Below the pieces are notes generated by a model, which saw only the letters and a program-made list of their open reading frames with translations, was not told where the DNA came from and did no database searches. A DNA stretch of 44,613 bases from Blastopirellula marina (lineage in GTDB: Bacteria > Planctomycetota > Planctomycetia > Pirellulales > Thermoguttaceae), in NCBI GenBank assembly GCA_020721965.1, contig DYLS01000001.1, forward strand, positions 1-44,613, given 5' to 3'. The number at the start of each line of letters is the position of its first letter. The first letter of the stretch is position 1. The translations under genes were made by a program, and so were the position numbers. Of the stretch, positions 2,021-8,752 are shown in pieces.

Positions 2021-2276
2021 GCTTTCGGGGATGCTCTCTCCGACAAGGCCCTACTTCGAGACACAATCGCATGTGAGACAGGCCCGAGCGGTTCGGCGAC
2101 AAGCGTCGAAATTCGTTAAAATTCGGCACTCCGTTTGGTTTATCGTGGTGGGGAAACCGCCATTTTCAAGCTGCAATTTCGGTACCAGTCTGAAAGTTGG
2201 AAGTGACCGTCATTTTTTCCCGCCAGTTGGCTCCCCCTCACTAGGGAGGCTCCCGTTCATTGGGGAAAGGTTGGGT

Positions 2277-3752
2277 ATGTCGCGAATTTGGACGCTAACG
2301 AAGCTCAAGCCCGTGGCAATTGCACTCTTCATGGTGGTATTGATCCCATCCCTTGCTGGGGGTGACGAAGATCGTCAAGCCATTGAACAGGCCAAAAGTT
2401 TGTCTCGTGCTTTTCGCGCCGCATCACAAAGAGTGCTCCCAACCGTTGTCAAGGTTCAGACCGCATCGACAACGGAAACAGGACAGGTCGGCGAACGTGA
2501 GAATCGCAACCCGCTGGATGACTTTTTCGGGAATCCCACGCCGGGCTTTCGATTTCAGATTCCCCGCCCTGAGATGGGGCTGGGTTCGGGCGTGATTATC
2601 GACCCGAAGGGCATCGTTTTGACCAATCGGCACGTCATTGAGAACGCCAGCATTATCACGGTTCAGGTTTCCGACGGACGTGAGTTTCCGGTGGTGGATA
2701 AGAAGGTCGATGACAAAACAGATATCGCCGTGCTGAAGATCGAGCCGTCGGAACCGCTTCCGGCCGCTTCCCTTGGAGATTCAGACCAGTTGGAGATCGG
2801 AGATTGGGTTCTTGCTGTCGGCAATCCTTTCGAGCTGGAAGGGACGGTAAGTGCCGGAATTATCAGCGCAAAAGGGAGAACGCTCAACTCCCTTGGGAGG
2901 ACGCGACTGATTCAGACGGATGCTGCGATCAACCCTGGCAATTCCGGTGGAGCCTTGGCGGATTTGGATGGCGAGGTGGTGGGGATCAACACGGCAATCT
3001 TTTCGCGAACCGGCCGCAATGAGGGGATCGGTTTTGCCATTCCCATCAATCTGGCCAAGTGGATCTCCGACGAACTGCTTCGACATGGCCGAGTTCGGCG
3101 AGCGTACCTGGGCGTGGCACTAGAACAGGTTCTTGCCCCGGCAACGGCCTATCAGCAAAACGGCACAGCCAAAGGCGTTGTGATACGGCAAGTATTCAAG
3201 GACACCCCGGCTCATCAAGCGGGGCTGAGAAAGAACGACTTGATTACGTCGTTTGACGGCATTCCTGTGAGCGAGATGTCGGCCTTGCAGGAGCTGGTGG
3301 AACGCGCATCAATCGATAGTCCGCACCGTGTCTCGATTATTCGTAAGGGAGAACTCCTTGAAGTGGAACTGACCTTGCGGGAAATGCCGAGTGACGAAGA
3401 GTTGCAGGCCCATGAACCGGTCGAGGAACCACCGGCGGACGCGGCGCCCCGTCGCAAAACGTACGATAAGTCCCTGGGGCTGTTGTTGATGGATTTCGAT
3501 GCGGAACTGGCGTCCGAGCTGGGCGTTCGGGTTGGCGAGGGAGTGGTCGTCGTTCACGCAGATCGCGGTAAGCCGGGCGCGAAATGCGGGCTTAAGGCGG
3601 GAATGGTGATTGTTCGGGCAGGTAACAAATTGGTGCGAGGCCTCAACGATTTCCAAAATGCGCTCGACGAAAATGAGGATGCCGCTGCATTGGCTTTAGA
3701 AGTGGTCAGTCGTGCCGGTCGGCAGATTTTGATGTTGAAACGGCCCGAATAA
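2277..3752 (+). CDS. HtrA/DegP-family serine protease with two PDZ domains
   Basis: This is an exported trypsin-like serine protease/chaperone of the HtrA (Deg) family, which degrades misfolded envelope proteins. From the ATG at 2277 it has 491 residues. The signal or anchor segment is at about 9-28. The catalytic triad is His119 (TNRHVIENA), Asp149 (KTDIAVLKIE) and Ser223 (GNSGGAL). PDZ1 spans about 278-368 and PDZ2 about 400-490. I chose 2277 because GGGGAAAGG lies just upstream and the signal peptide follows directly; the longer frame from 2031 would bury that signal. The linker between the PDZ domains is acidic and proline-rich. The gene stands alone after the rnc-side intergenic region, and the next gene begins about 100 bp later. 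Confidence 0.93.
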   Translation: MSRIWTLTKLKPVAIALFMVVLIPSLAGGDEDRQAIEQAKSLSRAFRAASQRVLPTVVKVQTASTTETGQVGERENRNPLDDFFGNPTPGFRFQIPRPEMGLGSGVIIDPKGIVLTNRHVIENASIITVQVSDGREFPVVDKKVDDKTDIAVLKIEPSEPLPAASLGDSDQLEIGDWVLAVGNPFELEGTVSAGIISAKGRTLNSLGRTRLIQTDAAINPGNSGGALADLDGEVVGINTAIFSRTGRNEGIGFAIPINLAKWISDELLRHGRVRRAYLGVALEQVLAPATAYQQNGTAKGVVIRQVFKDTPAHQAGLRKNDLITSFDGIPVSEMSALQELVERASIDSPHRVSIIRKGELLEVELTLREMPSDEELQAHEPVEEPPADAAPRRKTYDKSLGLLLMDFDAELASELGVRVGEGVVVVHADRGKPGAKCGLKAGMVIVRAGNKLVRGLNDFQNALDENEDAAALALEVVSRAGRQILMLKRPE

Positions 3753-3855: not shown

Positions 3856-5346
3856 GTGGCTTTGACAGGTGATCCTCGCGATCCTCGATGGGGCCTGGAT
3901 TTTTACGGAGCGCTTTTAGGCATGTTATCGGTAGCTCGTCTGGCGATTGGGGGAATAGATACGGAGACGGATATCCGCCCCTTGCTCCGCGTCCTTCTTC
4001 GAAAATTTACGGAGAGGGACATGCACGTGCAGTGCTTCCTGGCTCACGCGGCGTTTACGGGGTTTCAAGAGCTTCGGTCATGGTCGGGTGCCATTCCGCG
4101 GCACTTGGATAGCTGGCTGATGACACCGCAGCACTGTCGCGACACGTTCGCCTCGGGCACTCGTGGCGCGGACGTTGCAGTGGTGGTGGGACGCTATCAG
4201 CGCCTCTTGCCCGCCTGGAACGGGGTTCGCCGCCGGATTGCCCCCTGCTCGCATCAGAGCCGCCTCGTGCATCGCTCCAGCTCTCGCCGATCGTCGGGCC
4301 AAACGTCGCCTCGACAACGCGGCCAGGAATGCGTGTGCAGCCTTTCCAGCGGAGGATATCTGGAATCTCTCTGCGATTGGCTGAACCTCACTCGCTTGGC
4401 TGTGTTGGACGCATCCTTCCTCAACGCTGGCACGGACGTTGTGCTGCCCGAGCGAGTGGATGGTTACCTGCTGGTGAACCTGCCGGAAAGCCGGGCTAGC
4501 CGTGCCGCCGTGGAGGTTGAAGCATTATGGGGAGCGCCGCTCTTCGCAGGGGTAGGTGCTCTCGTGGCTCAGCGGCCTGGCGAGTATCGCGCTGGCCGGG
4601 CTAACCTTGCCCTGACGTATTGGGACGAACGTCGATTCCTGAACGTGTTAGAGCACAGCCGTAGTCGGATGCTACCCGTCGCGTCGGGGAATATTGAGGA
4701 TTTTGGTGGCAGGATCACGGTAGCTCTGGCTCGGGATGAGGCATTTCACTGTTACTTCGCGGAGACACTGGATGCCTTGGAACGCCGCGGAGCTAGGTTG
4801 GTCGATTTTTCCCCACTCCACGATGAAGCCCTGCCTCGGGGTGTCGATTGTGTTTATTTGGGATGTGGGGATTGCTCGGCCTACGCCGCAATCCTGGCAC
4901 AAAACCACTGCATGAAAGAGTCCCTGCGGATTCACCTTCGCCGCGGCGGACGCATCTACGCGGAGGGCACCGGGGCAGCATATTTGTGCCGCTGGATCGA
5001 GGTCAAACCCGGCTGCTTCATTCCGGGCGTGGGATTGCTCCCTGCCTCCGCCCGGAGAATGCCGCGACATGGAGACCCCTCTGCCCTTCGTTTGCACTTG
5101 CGCAGAGGGACGTGGTTGGGACCGGCTGGTACAGAGGTCCGGGGCTATCGCAACTGGGAATGGTGGTTCGAACCGGAATCGCTCTCGTCGGGTTTAATTG
5201 CGGAATCGGGATTCGAGTATGATATGATGGGCGATGCGAACGTTTTGGGGAGCTTGCTGCACCTCGATTTCGCTGCCCAGGAACATCTCCTCTCGGCGTT
5301 CTTTCAGACGCGGCCGAATCGTACTCATTCTTTTACCGGCCACTGA
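3856..5346 (+). CDS. CobB/CbiA-like protein with degenerate active sites
   Basis: The fold and layout follow cobyrinate a,c-diamide synthase (CobB/CbiA). The N-terminal DTBS-like domain covers about 25-190, and the GATase_3 domain about 285-480 with FSPLHDEALP at 318-327, YLGCGDC at 334-340 and YAEGTGA at 369-374. The enzyme features are gone. The P-loop position reads GGIDTETDIR (32-41) instead of a GTSSGVGKT-like motif. The nucleophile position of the AECGG motif is Gly371. The GHxFHYS-type segment reads GYRNWEWW (430-437), and the final HLHF-type motif reads HLDF (469-472). The GTG start is the first possible one after an in-frame TGA at 3799. The frame is open throughout, so it is probably a maintained, non-catalytic paralogue. 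No cobalamin genes are nearby. Family is fairly secure; role unknown. Confidence 0.75.
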   Translation: MALTGDPRDPRWGLDFYGALLGMLSVARLAIGGIDTETDIRPLLRVLLRKFTERDMHVQCFLAHAAFTGFQELRSWSGAIPRHLDSWLMTPQHCRDTFASGTRGADVAVVVGRYQRLLPAWNGVRRRIAPCSHQSRLVHRSSSRRSSGQTSPRQRGQECVCSLSSGGYLESLCDWLNLTRLAVLDASFLNAGTDVVLPERVDGYLLVNLPESRASRAAVEVEALWGAPLFAGVGALVAQRPGEYRAGRANLALTYWDERRFLNVLEHSRSRMLPVASGNIEDFGGRITVALARDEAFHCYFAETLDALERRGARLVDFSPLHDEALPRGVDCVYLGCGDCSAYAAILAQNHCMKESLRIHLRRGGRIYAEGTGAAYLCRWIEVKPGCFIPGVGLLPASARRMPRHGDPSALRLHLRRGTWLGPAGTEVRGYRNWEWWFEPESLSSGLIAESGFEYDMMGDANVLGSLLHLDFAAQEHLLSAFFQTRPNRTHSFTGH

Positions 5347-5888: not shown

Positions 5889-7034
5889 ATGTCATACCTC
5901 ATGTGGTGGTTGCTCATCGTGTTCGCATTAGCCGCCACCGGATTTCGTGAATGCCATGCGTCTGCGAGATCCGCCGGAATCGCAAGGCTTCAGGATTCTT
6001 CGGGAATCGCCGGAATGGCCCAAGGGCGAGTGCTGGGAGGTTGGCCTGGCAGCATTCCAGAGATGGGTAACGTTGTTTTAGTCGGCAATCCATCGGCGGA
6101 TCGCTCACGCGGACGTTTGCGTGAGCGTCTTCGCGAGCGCATCCAAGGGCTGCGTGGGGGGCCAACGGGGTCTGATTCGTCTTCGTTTGCACCGGGATTG
6201 CACCCCCTTCCAGCGCAAACTGGCGAGGTGTTACCCGCTCCGCAAGAATCAACCGATACCCGCCCGCTGTTGAATCGGCTGCGACGCGCCCTGCGTGACC
6301 TAGGAATTTCAGGCGGGGAGTCGGATACGTATCAGAGAAATCCCGAGTGGGGCTGGCCTGGGGTGTCCGAGTATCCGTGGGCGTCTCCCCAGCCAATCAT
6401 GCCGCAAGACGCGATCAGCCTGCGGCCCGCGGCTCCCGGCCCCTGGCTGAAACCAATGCCTGATATGGACACCAGCGGGGCCGCCACGGGGCTGCCAGAT
6501 CGGCAGTCCCCAGGGTTATCGTCCTCACTCCCGCAAGGCTTGCCAGTATCCCCGAGCAAACCCACCCTGCCCCTCCTCATGCCTCCCAACGCGGGCACCC
6601 ACTCCCAACAACCGGCGGGAGATCCCGAGCTTGATGGGCCGACTCTCGCTGATCCGACAACGGGCGGCAAGCCGACTGCGCTCGTGGAGCCACAAGGCAC
6701 GAATAGCCAGGCACCGCAGGATGCCGGAGCCAAGCCAACCGACCCCGGAAGCGCCGGTACACTGGGATCGTTTTTCGGCGGTGTCGCTCGCTTTCTGGGG
6801 TCCGCTTCCAAAACCGACGGCGCGAACGACAGCCAGAAATCCGAAGGTATCGGACAGGTTAAGGCAAGTGCGGGGGGCACGCCCCCTAGCTCGCCTTCGG
6901 TCAGCGGCAAGGGCAGCACGCCACCCGAGCAAAGCGAGCCAGCGATGCACGCGACTCCCTCCACCACCACTTCAAAAACCACCTTGGAAGGCATTAGAAA
7001 TAAGATTCTCAATCGGGTTCCGAAAGGAAACTGA
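5889..7034 (+). CDS. Exported proline/glycine/serine-rich protein of unknown function
   Basis: I do not recognise the family. The N-terminus (MSYLMWWLLIVFALAATGF) is a signal peptide or membrane anchor, and TTAAGGACAAGTGCC just before the ATG gives a good ribosome-binding site. The rest is low complexity: rich in Pro, Gly, Ser and Thr, with an Arg-rich patch near 70-90 (RGRLRERLRERIQG) and a second short basic stretch near 120-130. The C-terminus returns to a more ordered, basic segment (KTTLEGIRNKILNRVPKGN). Its minus strand is also open over long stretches, which is common in GC-rich low-complexity sequence. It is probably a secreted or surface-exposed, mostly unstructured protein. It sits between the CbiA-like gene and the MenC-like gene without clear functional link. 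Confidence 0.65.
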   Translation: MSYLMWWLLIVFALAATGFRECHASARSAGIARLQDSSGIAGMAQGRVLGGWPGSIPEMGNVVLVGNPSADRSRGRLRERLRERIQGLRGGPTGSDSSSFAPGLHPLPAQTGEVLPAPQESTDTRPLLNRLRRALRDLGISGGESDTYQRNPEWGWPGVSEYPWASPQPIMPQDAISLRPAAPGPWLKPMPDMDTSGAATGLPDRQSPGLSSSLPQGLPVSPSKPTLPLLMPPNAGTHSQQPAGDPELDGPTLADPTTGGKPTALVEPQGTNSQAPQDAGAKPTDPGSAGTLGSFFGGVARFLGSASKTDGANDSQKSEGIGQVKASAGGTPPSSPSVSGKGSTPPEQSEPAMHATPSTTTSKTTLEGIRNKILNRVPKGN

Positions 7035-7168
7035 GGGCACTCGATTTTTCCGCTAAAATGACCTGTTGTCGCCGCAAGGCAGGGTGAGGCAATCCCGCCT
7101 TCTTTATGTTTGATCCCGCTGGATCGCCCAGCCTTTCTCCCAGCGAACAGCCCAGTAGGCAAGACCGA

Positions 7169-8314
7169 ATGATTGTCGAATGCATCGATGCCTATTTGAT
7201 CGAGCTTCCTTTCCGCGAGCCGTTCTTGCCGGAGACGGTTCCCTACTCGGAAGGGTGGATTCCGTGGAGTTCGTTGAAGACCGTGGTCGTTCGCATCTGC
7301 ACACGCGGCGGTGTCGGTTGGGGGGAAGCCTCGCCGGGAAACGGTCCTTTGCTTGGTCCCGAATGGTGCGGCGCGACGTTCGCGTGCATTCGTGATTGGA
7401 TGGCCCCACGTCTGGTCGGGCGAGATATCGCGGATGCGGCTCAGTTGCAAGGGCTTTTAGCGGCCATCAAAGGGCATCGCTACGCTCGGGCTGCCTTAGA
7501 TATGGCCTGGTGGGATCTGCAATCGCGAACCAAAAAACAGCCGCTCCACCAGTTGCTGCAAGCCAAAACTACCCGCATCCCATTGGGGGGTTGGTTGGAT
7601 CGCATGGCATCCCAGGAAGACTTCCTAGCAGAGATCGCAGCGGCCTTTCAGGCAGGCTATTCTCGTGTGGGGCTAAAGTTGCGTCCCGGCTGGGATTTGG
7701 CCATGCTGAACGCCGTACGGCAAGAGTATCCCACTGAGAACATCATCGCAGATCTGGAAGGGGCGTTGGGATTGCACCACATGGATACCCTTTATCGTCT
7801 GGATGATTTTGGCTTGCGGCTGGTGGAACAACCGCTGCCGCCAGAGGATCTTGTCGGCCACGCCATGGTGCAAGAAACACTGCGGACCCCCATTTGTCTG
7901 GACGAGTCTATCACCACGCCGGAACTCGCCGATATGGCTTTGGAACTGCGGAGTGGAAAATACGTCAACATCAACGTGGGGCGGGTAGGTGGATTTACCC
8001 CCGCCATTGCCATCTATGATGCTTGCCACGCGGCTTGTACCCCCAATTACTTGGGATTGAATCTTCAAAGCAGCATTGGTACCCGCGCATCGCTTGCCCT
8101 GGCGGGGCGGGCCAATTTTTCTTATCCCGCCGACTTCTGGGACCTGTCACGCATTCTTACAGCCGACTTGACAGAACCCGTACCGCTCGAAAAGGAGGGG
8201 CAAAGCGGCGTGCTGCACGCCTGTTTGACGGATGCCGTCGGTTTGGGGGCCGAACCCAAGCCCGATGATTGGAAGGGCCTGATTTGCGATGCGGCACACG
8301 TCCAACGACAGTGA
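7169..8314 (+). CDS. MenC-like o-succinylbenzoate synthase/enolase-superfamily protein
   Basis: This is a muconate-lactonizing subgroup enolase-superfamily protein closest to o-succinylbenzoate synthase/N-acylamino acid racemase (menaquinone pathway). Numbered from the upstream ATG at 7106, I see YSRVGLKLRPGWD (185-197, Lys191), the three metal ligands Asp216, Glu241 and Asp266 (LDES), and the NINVGRVGG motif at 288-296. The second catalytic Lys, normally in an NIKxGRVGG motif, is Asn290. The first Lys of the KxK pair is Gly189. The domain proper begins at MIVECIDAYLIELPF (7169), so I start there; 7106 would add a 21-residue Pro/Ser-rich leader. Neither start has a strong ribosome-binding site. 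No other men genes are visible. Fold is secure; OSBS activity is doubtful. Confidence 0.8.
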   Translation: MIVECIDAYLIELPFREPFLPETVPYSEGWIPWSSLKTVVVRICTRGGVGWGEASPGNGPLLGPEWCGATFACIRDWMAPRLVGRDIADAAQLQGLLAAIKGHRYARAALDMAWWDLQSRTKKQPLHQLLQAKTTRIPLGGWLDRMASQEDFLAEIAAAFQAGYSRVGLKLRPGWDLAMLNAVRQEYPTENIIADLEGALGLHHMDTLYRLDDFGLRLVEQPLPPEDLVGHAMVQETLRTPICLDESITTPELADMALELRSGKYVNINVGRVGGFTPAIAIYDACHAACTPNYLGLNLQSSIGTRASLALAGRANFSYPADFWDLSRILTADLTEPVPLEKEGQSGVLHACLTDAVGLGAEPKPDDWKGLICDAAHVQRQ

Positions 8315-8443
8315 CGCCGCCACGACCGGATGACGCCAAGGAGGGTAACAGAGGGAGTTTGCCCCGCGATCCGCTAACTCCTATAACAAGCGATAAGCGG
8401 GAACAGGAATACGTGTTCTGACGGAAAGGAAAGGATCGAACTC

Positions 8444-8752
8444 ATGGTCCATGTCGTCGCCGAGATTACGGCAAAGGCCGGCTACCGGGACAAGGTGTTG
8501 GAGTTGTTTCGCGCCGCGGCAGAAAAGGTGCGGCAGGAACCAGGGTGCATCGAATACTTTGCCACCGTGGACACGGATTCCGGTTTGCCGGTCCAGCCTC
8601 CTGTTCGCCCCAACGTCATCACCGTGCTTGAGAAATGGGAATCCTTGGAGGCCCTCCAGTCGCACGCCTCCGGCGACGCGCTACACGAGTTTCTCGAACA
8701 GGCTGGGCCGATCATGGAAGGATTGACAGCACGAGTCATGGAGCCTGCGTGA
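8444..8752 (+). CDS. ABM-domain (YgiN-type) putative quinol monooxygenase
   Basis: This 102-residue protein matches the antibiotic-biosynthesis-monooxygenase fold, a dimeric ferredoxin-like barrel found in YgiN and in heme-degrading or quinol-oxidising enzymes. Typical segments are VAEITAKAGYRDKVLELF at the start, EPGCIEYFATVD in the middle, and EKWESLEALQSHASGD followed by the final helix. Length fits single-domain members. GGAAAGGAAAGG precedes the ATG by about 10 bases. It follows the MenC-like gene by 129 bp on the same strand, and a link to quinone chemistry is possible but only inferred. The substrate cannot be read from the sequence. Confidence 0.85.
   Translation: MVHVVAEITAKAGYRDKVLELFRAAAEKVRQEPGCIEYFATVDTDSGLPVQPPVRPNVITVLEKWESLEALQSHASGDALHEFLEQAGPIMEGLTARVMEPA

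Follow-up and report, generated by a model that had tools for sequence, protein, structure and literature searches.

CobB/CbiA, the cobyrinic/hydrogenobyrinic acid a,c-diamide synthase, is a two-domain protein in which the aspartates of the GPDYID motif and the glutamate of the VIEGVMGLYDG motif have catalytic roles. The family is not restricted to this reaction. According to PMC10504309, CfbB (F430) and DsrN (siroheme amide) are amidating CobB homologues outside of cobalamin synthesis, and they thereby provide a precedent for CobB paralogues that do not take part in B12 synthesis. A further related protein is GatD of the MurT/GatD complex, for which PMC5871853 reports that the C94A and H189A variants are inactive in glutamine deamidation and that G60 is an oxyanion-hole residue.

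The gene described here, in the following referred to as pseudo-CobB, lies in a window of 44,613 nucleotides (the whole stretch of DNA that was analysed; coordinates refer to its + strand unless stated otherwise). Pseudo-CobB has in common with CobB/CbiA the two domains, the motifs R-x-L-D-x-W-x-M, D-x-A-F-x-x-Y and FSP, the glutamate before the nucleophile position and the C-terminal histidine. It differs, however, in the lack of the P-loop, of the GPDYID aspartates and of both histidines of the HEFH motif, in the replacement of the nucleophilic cysteine by glycine, in a GCG instead of a GGG loop, in a score below the NCBIfam cut-off and in B12 genes not adjoining it. The CfbB model also matches pseudo-CobB, yet CfbB and DsrN are described in PMC10504309 as amidating proteins, whereas pseudo-CobB lacks the residues needed and stays far below the CfbB cut-off. 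With GatD it shares the fold of the glutaminase domain and the position of the catalytic histidine, but where GatD has Cys94 and the oxyanion Gly60 (PMC5871853) pseudo-CobB has Gly349 and Cys315. A glycine at the nucleophile position also occurs in an archaeal CobB-like protein (L115, Methanomicrobia, 7287-8636; YAEGGGLAYL). Unlike pseudo-CobB, this protein retains a P-loop and an HEYH motif, reaches 345.6 bits with the CobB model (cut-off 254) and groups with the P-loop-bearing proteins; the loss of its nucleophile is apparently independent of that in the planctomycete proteins.

The best reading is an old planctomycete lineage of pseudo-amidases that has its relatives among the tetrapyrrole a,c-diamide synthases of the CobB type. 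Searches of open-licence papers in PubMed Central listed none that describes a CobB lineage of planctomycetes as catalytically dead, and the part consulted of the Thermogutta terrifontis paper (PMC5673643) does not discuss the gene.

Gene model and predicted fold

The original prediction was based on an open frame of 496 codons that starts with the GTG at position 3856 and extends over positions 3856-5346. The probable start of the gene is, however, the ATG at position 3922, because a methionine is present at the aligned position in L002, the homologue from the same-genus genome G003, and because a purine-rich stretch, ACGGAGCG, lies immediately 5′ of this ATG. The resulting coding sequence (3922-5346) encodes 474 amino acids. 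All residue numbers are counted from this ATG, by which the Gly371 of the original prediction becomes Gly349. In Pfam, GATase_3 was the sole domain matched, with 57.7 bits against a cut-off of 27; the CbiA domain gave no match. The NCBIfam models for CobB and CfbB gave 112 bits and 95 bits, respectively, and thus scores below their cut-offs of 254 and 560.

An AlphaFold2 model calculated from 55 aligned rows (pLDDT 87, pTM 0.86) retains both domains. The N-terminal part (residues 1-245, positions 3922-4656) is predicted to form a dethiobiotin-synthetase/CbiA-like domain from which the P-loop has been lost, with a VIA-align Z of 14.0 to the dethiobiotin synthetase 3fgn_A (184 aligned residues, rmsd 3.5). 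The second domain (residues 262-469, positions 4705-5328) is class I glutaminase-like according to Pfam GATase_3 and to VIA-align. In the latter, GatD chains matched the model with Z values of 16.3 to 18.6 (residues 257-469; 204 aligned residues and rmsd 3.9 for the top match). GatD also made up the best rows in Foldseek, and the structure searches taken together yielded matches to dethiobiotin synthetase and to GatD, HisH and PdxT. Full-length CobB was absent among the Foldseek and VIA-align matches listed, an absence that does not count as evidence. Sequence searches for solved relatives yielded none with the single protein and, with a profile, only GatD and cobyric-acid-synthase entries (E 0.02 to 0.14). 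The layout of CobB/CbiA, which had been predicted to be kept overall, is therefore recovered as two domains at the level of the predicted fold, while the Pfam search of the sequence recognises the glutaminase domain alone. Residues 97-138 (positions 4210-4335) form a low-confidence insert (pLDDT below 50 at residues 97-123 and 125-138), which is probably disordered and is also present in two other aligned homologues from the same genus.

Catalytic motifs and conserved core

The motif alignment comprised 117 rows, namely 35 with a P-loop, 77 without and five that do not cover the P-loop; rows that matched the model at fewer than 300 positions, or that did not differ from another row across a core stretch, were left out. 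The 82 rows without a P-loop or not covering it are referred to as clade rows, and two of them, the window row and L140, represent the same gene. Dropping L140 and L131, a near copy of L064, leaves 80 clade rows, and a further removal of the five partial rows leaves the 75 that were used for the tree, for parsimony and for the independent-pairs test.

At the former P-loop (residues 10-19 as derived from the alignment, positions 3949-3978) the window protein reads GIDTETDIRP, compared with GTHSGVGKTT in the canonical CobB L200, which bears out the predicted loss of this motif. None of the 77 clade rows covering the P-loop contains GK[TS], a count that is circular if taken alone, as the P-loop-less rows were filed by this very motif; the tree, built afterwards, nevertheless sets them apart from the P-loop-bearing rows by one branch. 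Further residues of the synthase domain are affected as well. Where L200 reads FKAGPDYID, the window has FLAHAAFTG and thereby none of the GPDYID aspartates, and VIEGVMGLYDG of L200 is matched by VVVGRYQRLLP; the glutamate of this motif is absent in the window and present in 60 of the 82 clade rows.

In the glutaminase domain, the nucleophile motif YGECGGMMYL of L200 is matched by YAEGTGAAYL. Gly349 (positions 4966-4968) thus takes the place of the nucleophilic cysteine, just as had been predicted. Glycine is also the prevailing residue at this position in the 82 clade rows (73 rows), followed by cysteine (four), serine and alanine (two each) and valine (one), while 34 of the 35 P-loop-bearing rows have cysteine and a single one, the archaeal L115, has glycine. 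The cysteine-bearing clade rows (L061, L072, L087 and L088; 4/80) all lack the P-loop.

The claim that the histidine of the GATase motifs is replaced turned out to be correct for one site and wrong for another. Both histidines of HEFH are gone (RGYRNWEW in the window, RAHEFHWS in L200), with Tyr409 (positions 5146-5148) standing in place of the first one, as does a tyrosine in 82 of 82 clade rows. The C-terminal histidine, the counterpart of the catalytic H189 of GatD, is by contrast retained as His447 (positions 5260-5262). It is present in 61 of the 82 clade rows, the window included, and in all 35 P-loop-bearing rows; within the set of 80 rows it is found in 59 of 79 and missing in 20. In a canonical CobB from a related genome (L026), the C-terminal histidine aligns with H189 and the GGG loop with G59-G61 of GatD, whose residue numbers were counted by hand on the printed alignment.

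Having lost its ATP site as well as its glutaminase nucleophile, pseudo-CobB should be unable to carry out the CobB reaction. Cysteine in 4/80 rows and histidine in 59/79 rows nevertheless limit the idea of a dead glutaminase insofar as erosion of the site does not extend to all members.

Apart from the catalytic residues, much of the core is shared. In total, 35 columns are at least 85% conserved in both the clade and the P-loop-bearing group, including R60, L62, D63, G90, D272, F275, Y278, F296, S297, P298, G314, G316, N328 and E348. RHLDSWLM (residues 60-67, positions 4099-4122) is, for example, the conserved counterpart of the canonical RNLDTWLM. Other columns are new or sharpened within the clade, namely Y409 (100%), W398 and R407 (98% each), W414 (96%) and C315 (90%). 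Cysteine is furthermore clade-enriched at columns 44, 151, 170, 277, 330, 340 and 356, where canonical CobB seldom or never has it, as well as at one further column for which the window has a gap. The seven numbered columns span positions 4051-4989 (residues 44-356). The cysteines of the window protein itself are residues 72, 151, 277, 315, 330 and 356.

Descent, selection and genomic setting

In a tree of 110 rows, one branch with an SH-aLRT of 100 parts the 75 P-loop-less rows from the 35 P-loop-bearing CobB-like rows; as this tree was calculated by a quick method and drawn with midpoint rooting, the P-loop-less rows form a clade only if the root falls among the others. Alignment and tree together show that the motif substitutions recur in one clade. 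Among its members are sequences from records labelled Pirellulales or Isosphaeraceae as well as from the named strains Paludisphaera soli JC670, Aquisphaera insulae JC669 and Tautonia sociabilis GM2012. According to the original prediction, close relatives that keep the cysteine and the P-loop would have pointed to a recent pseudogene. Orthologues were present in all three same-genus genomes searched and lack both features in each case, with the copy in G001 being in two fragments. Parsimony reconstructs four changes of the cysteine state within the clade and a root without cysteine. The four cysteine-bearing members may accordingly be reversals, with repeated loss as the alternative; such members may also be under-counted, as profile A1 was built from 19 cysteine-less members and the pattern used to scan the named genomes required a glycine at this position.

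Within the order, the family profile matched 65 of 296 genomes. Approximately 57 of these were judged to contain pseudo-CobB and eight a canonical CobB, the latter on the basis of score and motif, although the motif reading of the carriers did not extend to G268 or to all of G071 and G080. The NCBIfam CobB model matched 137 of the 296 genomes at an E-value of 0.001, mostly through the pseudo-CobB family and weak matches, and exceeded its cut-off in nine; CobQ was above cut-off in 13. Such a patchy distribution (about 57/296 genomes) suggests that the function of pseudo-CobB is dispensable or replaceable. Only one of the approximately 57 carriers, many of the genomes being incomplete bins, also contains a canonical CobB (G040, which has CobQ as well). 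A role as inactive partner of canonical CobB is thereby ruled out for most carriers. In a sample of the phylum, matches were obtained in 65 of 392 genomes, 61 of them outside of the class, and the best 26 of these 61 (L200-L225) all possess both P-loop and cysteine.

Pseudo-CobB is under purifying selection. Over 12 homologue pairs, dN/dS (Nei-Gojobori) ranged from 0.044 to 0.269, with those values being rough for which dS exceeds 1, as is the case in several pairs. The comparison of the window with G003 gave 0.128 (0.098 for the neighbouring htrA in the same pair), and that of G002 with a G001 fragment gave 0.251. A thirteenth pair, L053 and L108, consists of fragments without overlap and yielded no value. 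Long open frames were present in nearly all members read, with the frame in G021 being split beside a run of N. The view that the open frame reflects selection rather than decay is thus supported by dN/dS values well below 1 in all 12 pairs. It hardly appears conceivable that the gene is a recently decayed CobB pseudogene or a sequencing artefact, as the lost catalytic motifs and the degenerate-looking, low-confidence insert of Thermogutta (residues 97-138) might suggest, because the long open frames, the low dN/dS values and identical substitutions in Pirellulales and Isosphaeraceae rule out a recent pseudogene.

As had been assumed, pseudo-CobB does not lie in a cobalamin cluster. Directly upstream, sequence matches identify a frame for an htrA/degQ-type serine protease (positions 2031-3752), the true start of which is probably located further downstream than 2031, and a divergent neighbour is the ribonuclease III gene rnc (positions 542-1366, - strand). 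A ThiI-like frame of 171 amino acids (positions 30-545) is situated upstream on the opposite strand to pseudo-CobB; as its relatives comprise 327-361 amino acids, it may have been cut by the assembly at the start of the contig. Downstream, a frame of 381 amino acids without any Pfam or NCBIfam match (positions 5889-7034) adjoins an enolase-superfamily gene (positions 7106-8314), which is close to o-succinylbenzoate synthase, although its 168.8 bits stay below the cut-off of 200.65. Several of these neighbours recur. Among 41 named loci with 4 kb or more of upstream sequence, rnc was found upstream in 20, htrA in 15 and a ThiI-like gene in up to 13, and among 47 with 4 kb or more of downstream sequence, mgtE was found downstream in 12, pdxJ in nine and dapA in eight. 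The names were confirmed for 23/23 (rnc), 17/17 (htrA), 14/14 (mgtE), 10/10 (pdxJ), 9/9 (dapA) and 12/16 (ThiI-like) cluster loci. A tblastn search at 1e-10 found no mgtE, pdxJ or dapA in the window. The recurrence of these neighbours is in favour of vertical inheritance; a clear functional theme does not emerge from them.

The source genome, which is 97% complete, contains neither a canonical CobB nor CobQ, but four B12-binding domains above cut-off. This gene content suggests that the host probably uses corrinoids without making them. In addition, three proteins of the broad tetrapyrrole-methylase family are encoded, a family that also includes enzymes unrelated to tetrapyrroles.

Possible functions of pseudo-CobB

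That pseudo-CobB is a pseudoenzyme of the CobB/CbiA fold, as originally proposed, is highly probable. Clade-wide substitutions, dN/dS values and the predicted fold all support this status, with the corrections that the C-terminal histidine is kept and that cysteine is found in 4/80 rows. What such a protein does is a more tentative matter. In the CobB ancestor, the tetrapyrrole presumably sat in the cleft between the two domains. As the most likely mode of action, this cleft may still bind a tetrapyrrole-like or another carboxylate ligand without catalysing any reaction, so that pseudo-CobB would serve to sense or carry this ligand or as a scaffold. The ligand-binding role is proposed here with some reserve, and the same reserve applies to the combined picture of a pseudoenzyme with a ligand-binding role.

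The main rival, which is possible although rather unlikely, is a scaffold or regulatory subunit in which the surface at the domain junction binds another protein instead of a small ligand. The linkage to htrA (15/41 loci) and mgtE (12/47 loci) and the newly fixed aromatic residues W398, Y409 and W414 would fit such a surface, but no neighbour is constant, the window is without mgtE, and canonical CobB, as a heteromeric partner, almost never occurs in carriers (1/~57).

A relocated active site appears improbable. In this case, the nucleophile would have moved from the elbow, where cysteine became Gly349, to the oxyanion loop, where glycine became Cys315 (positions 4864-4866), and Cys315 and His447 would form a new dyad for ATP-free glutaminase or thiol chemistry. 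Cys315 stands at the position of the oxyanion-hole residue G60 of GatD according to our own reading and count of the alignment. It is shared by 72 of the 80 clade rows, whereas none of the 34 canonical rows has it and all of them show the middle glycine of GGG there. Cys315 and His447 are also associated in raw counts (58/13/1/7), with a Fisher p of 1.8e-4 that ranks second among the 132 columns tested. When relatedness is allowed for, however, this association rests on three independent pairs on supported branches with a median p of 0.5, which is too few for significance. Coevolution of both residues is therefore not upheld and is kept as a suggestion only. Moreover, His447 is missing in 20/79 rows and the ATP site is gone.

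Even less probable is a more specific version, in which an ancestral swap throughout the clade (nucleophile cysteine to glycine, oxyanion glycine to cysteine) would have given rise to an ATP-independent thiol or glutamine chemistry of Cys315 and His447 that either acts on a bound tetrapyrrole or is under the control of one. If this were true, the members with both cysteines (L061, L072, L087 and L088) would be intermediates or reversals, and pseudo-CobB would be, to our knowledge, the first catalytically re-wired CobB lineage.

That pseudo-CobB is a true CobB, or a DsrN- or CfbB-like amidase using unusual motifs, is very improbable, for although the matching NCBIfam models are those of CobB and CfbB, both catalytic centres are lost, the scores are far below the cut-offs and the genome is without CobQ.

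The preferred reading as a pseudo-amidase has consequences for annotation, as all 55 family members scanned match CobB models at an E-value of 1e-10 or better. Similarity-based annotation may thus credit carriers with a step of B12 synthesis which they lack. The family represents a clear case of a scaffold that is kept under selection across Pirellulales and Isosphaeraceae while its ATP site has been lost throughout the clade and its glutaminase nucleophile nearly so. A conserved role of the tetrapyrrole-amidase fold apart from cobalamin would be directly testable, because the carriers include named strains besides metagenome bins.
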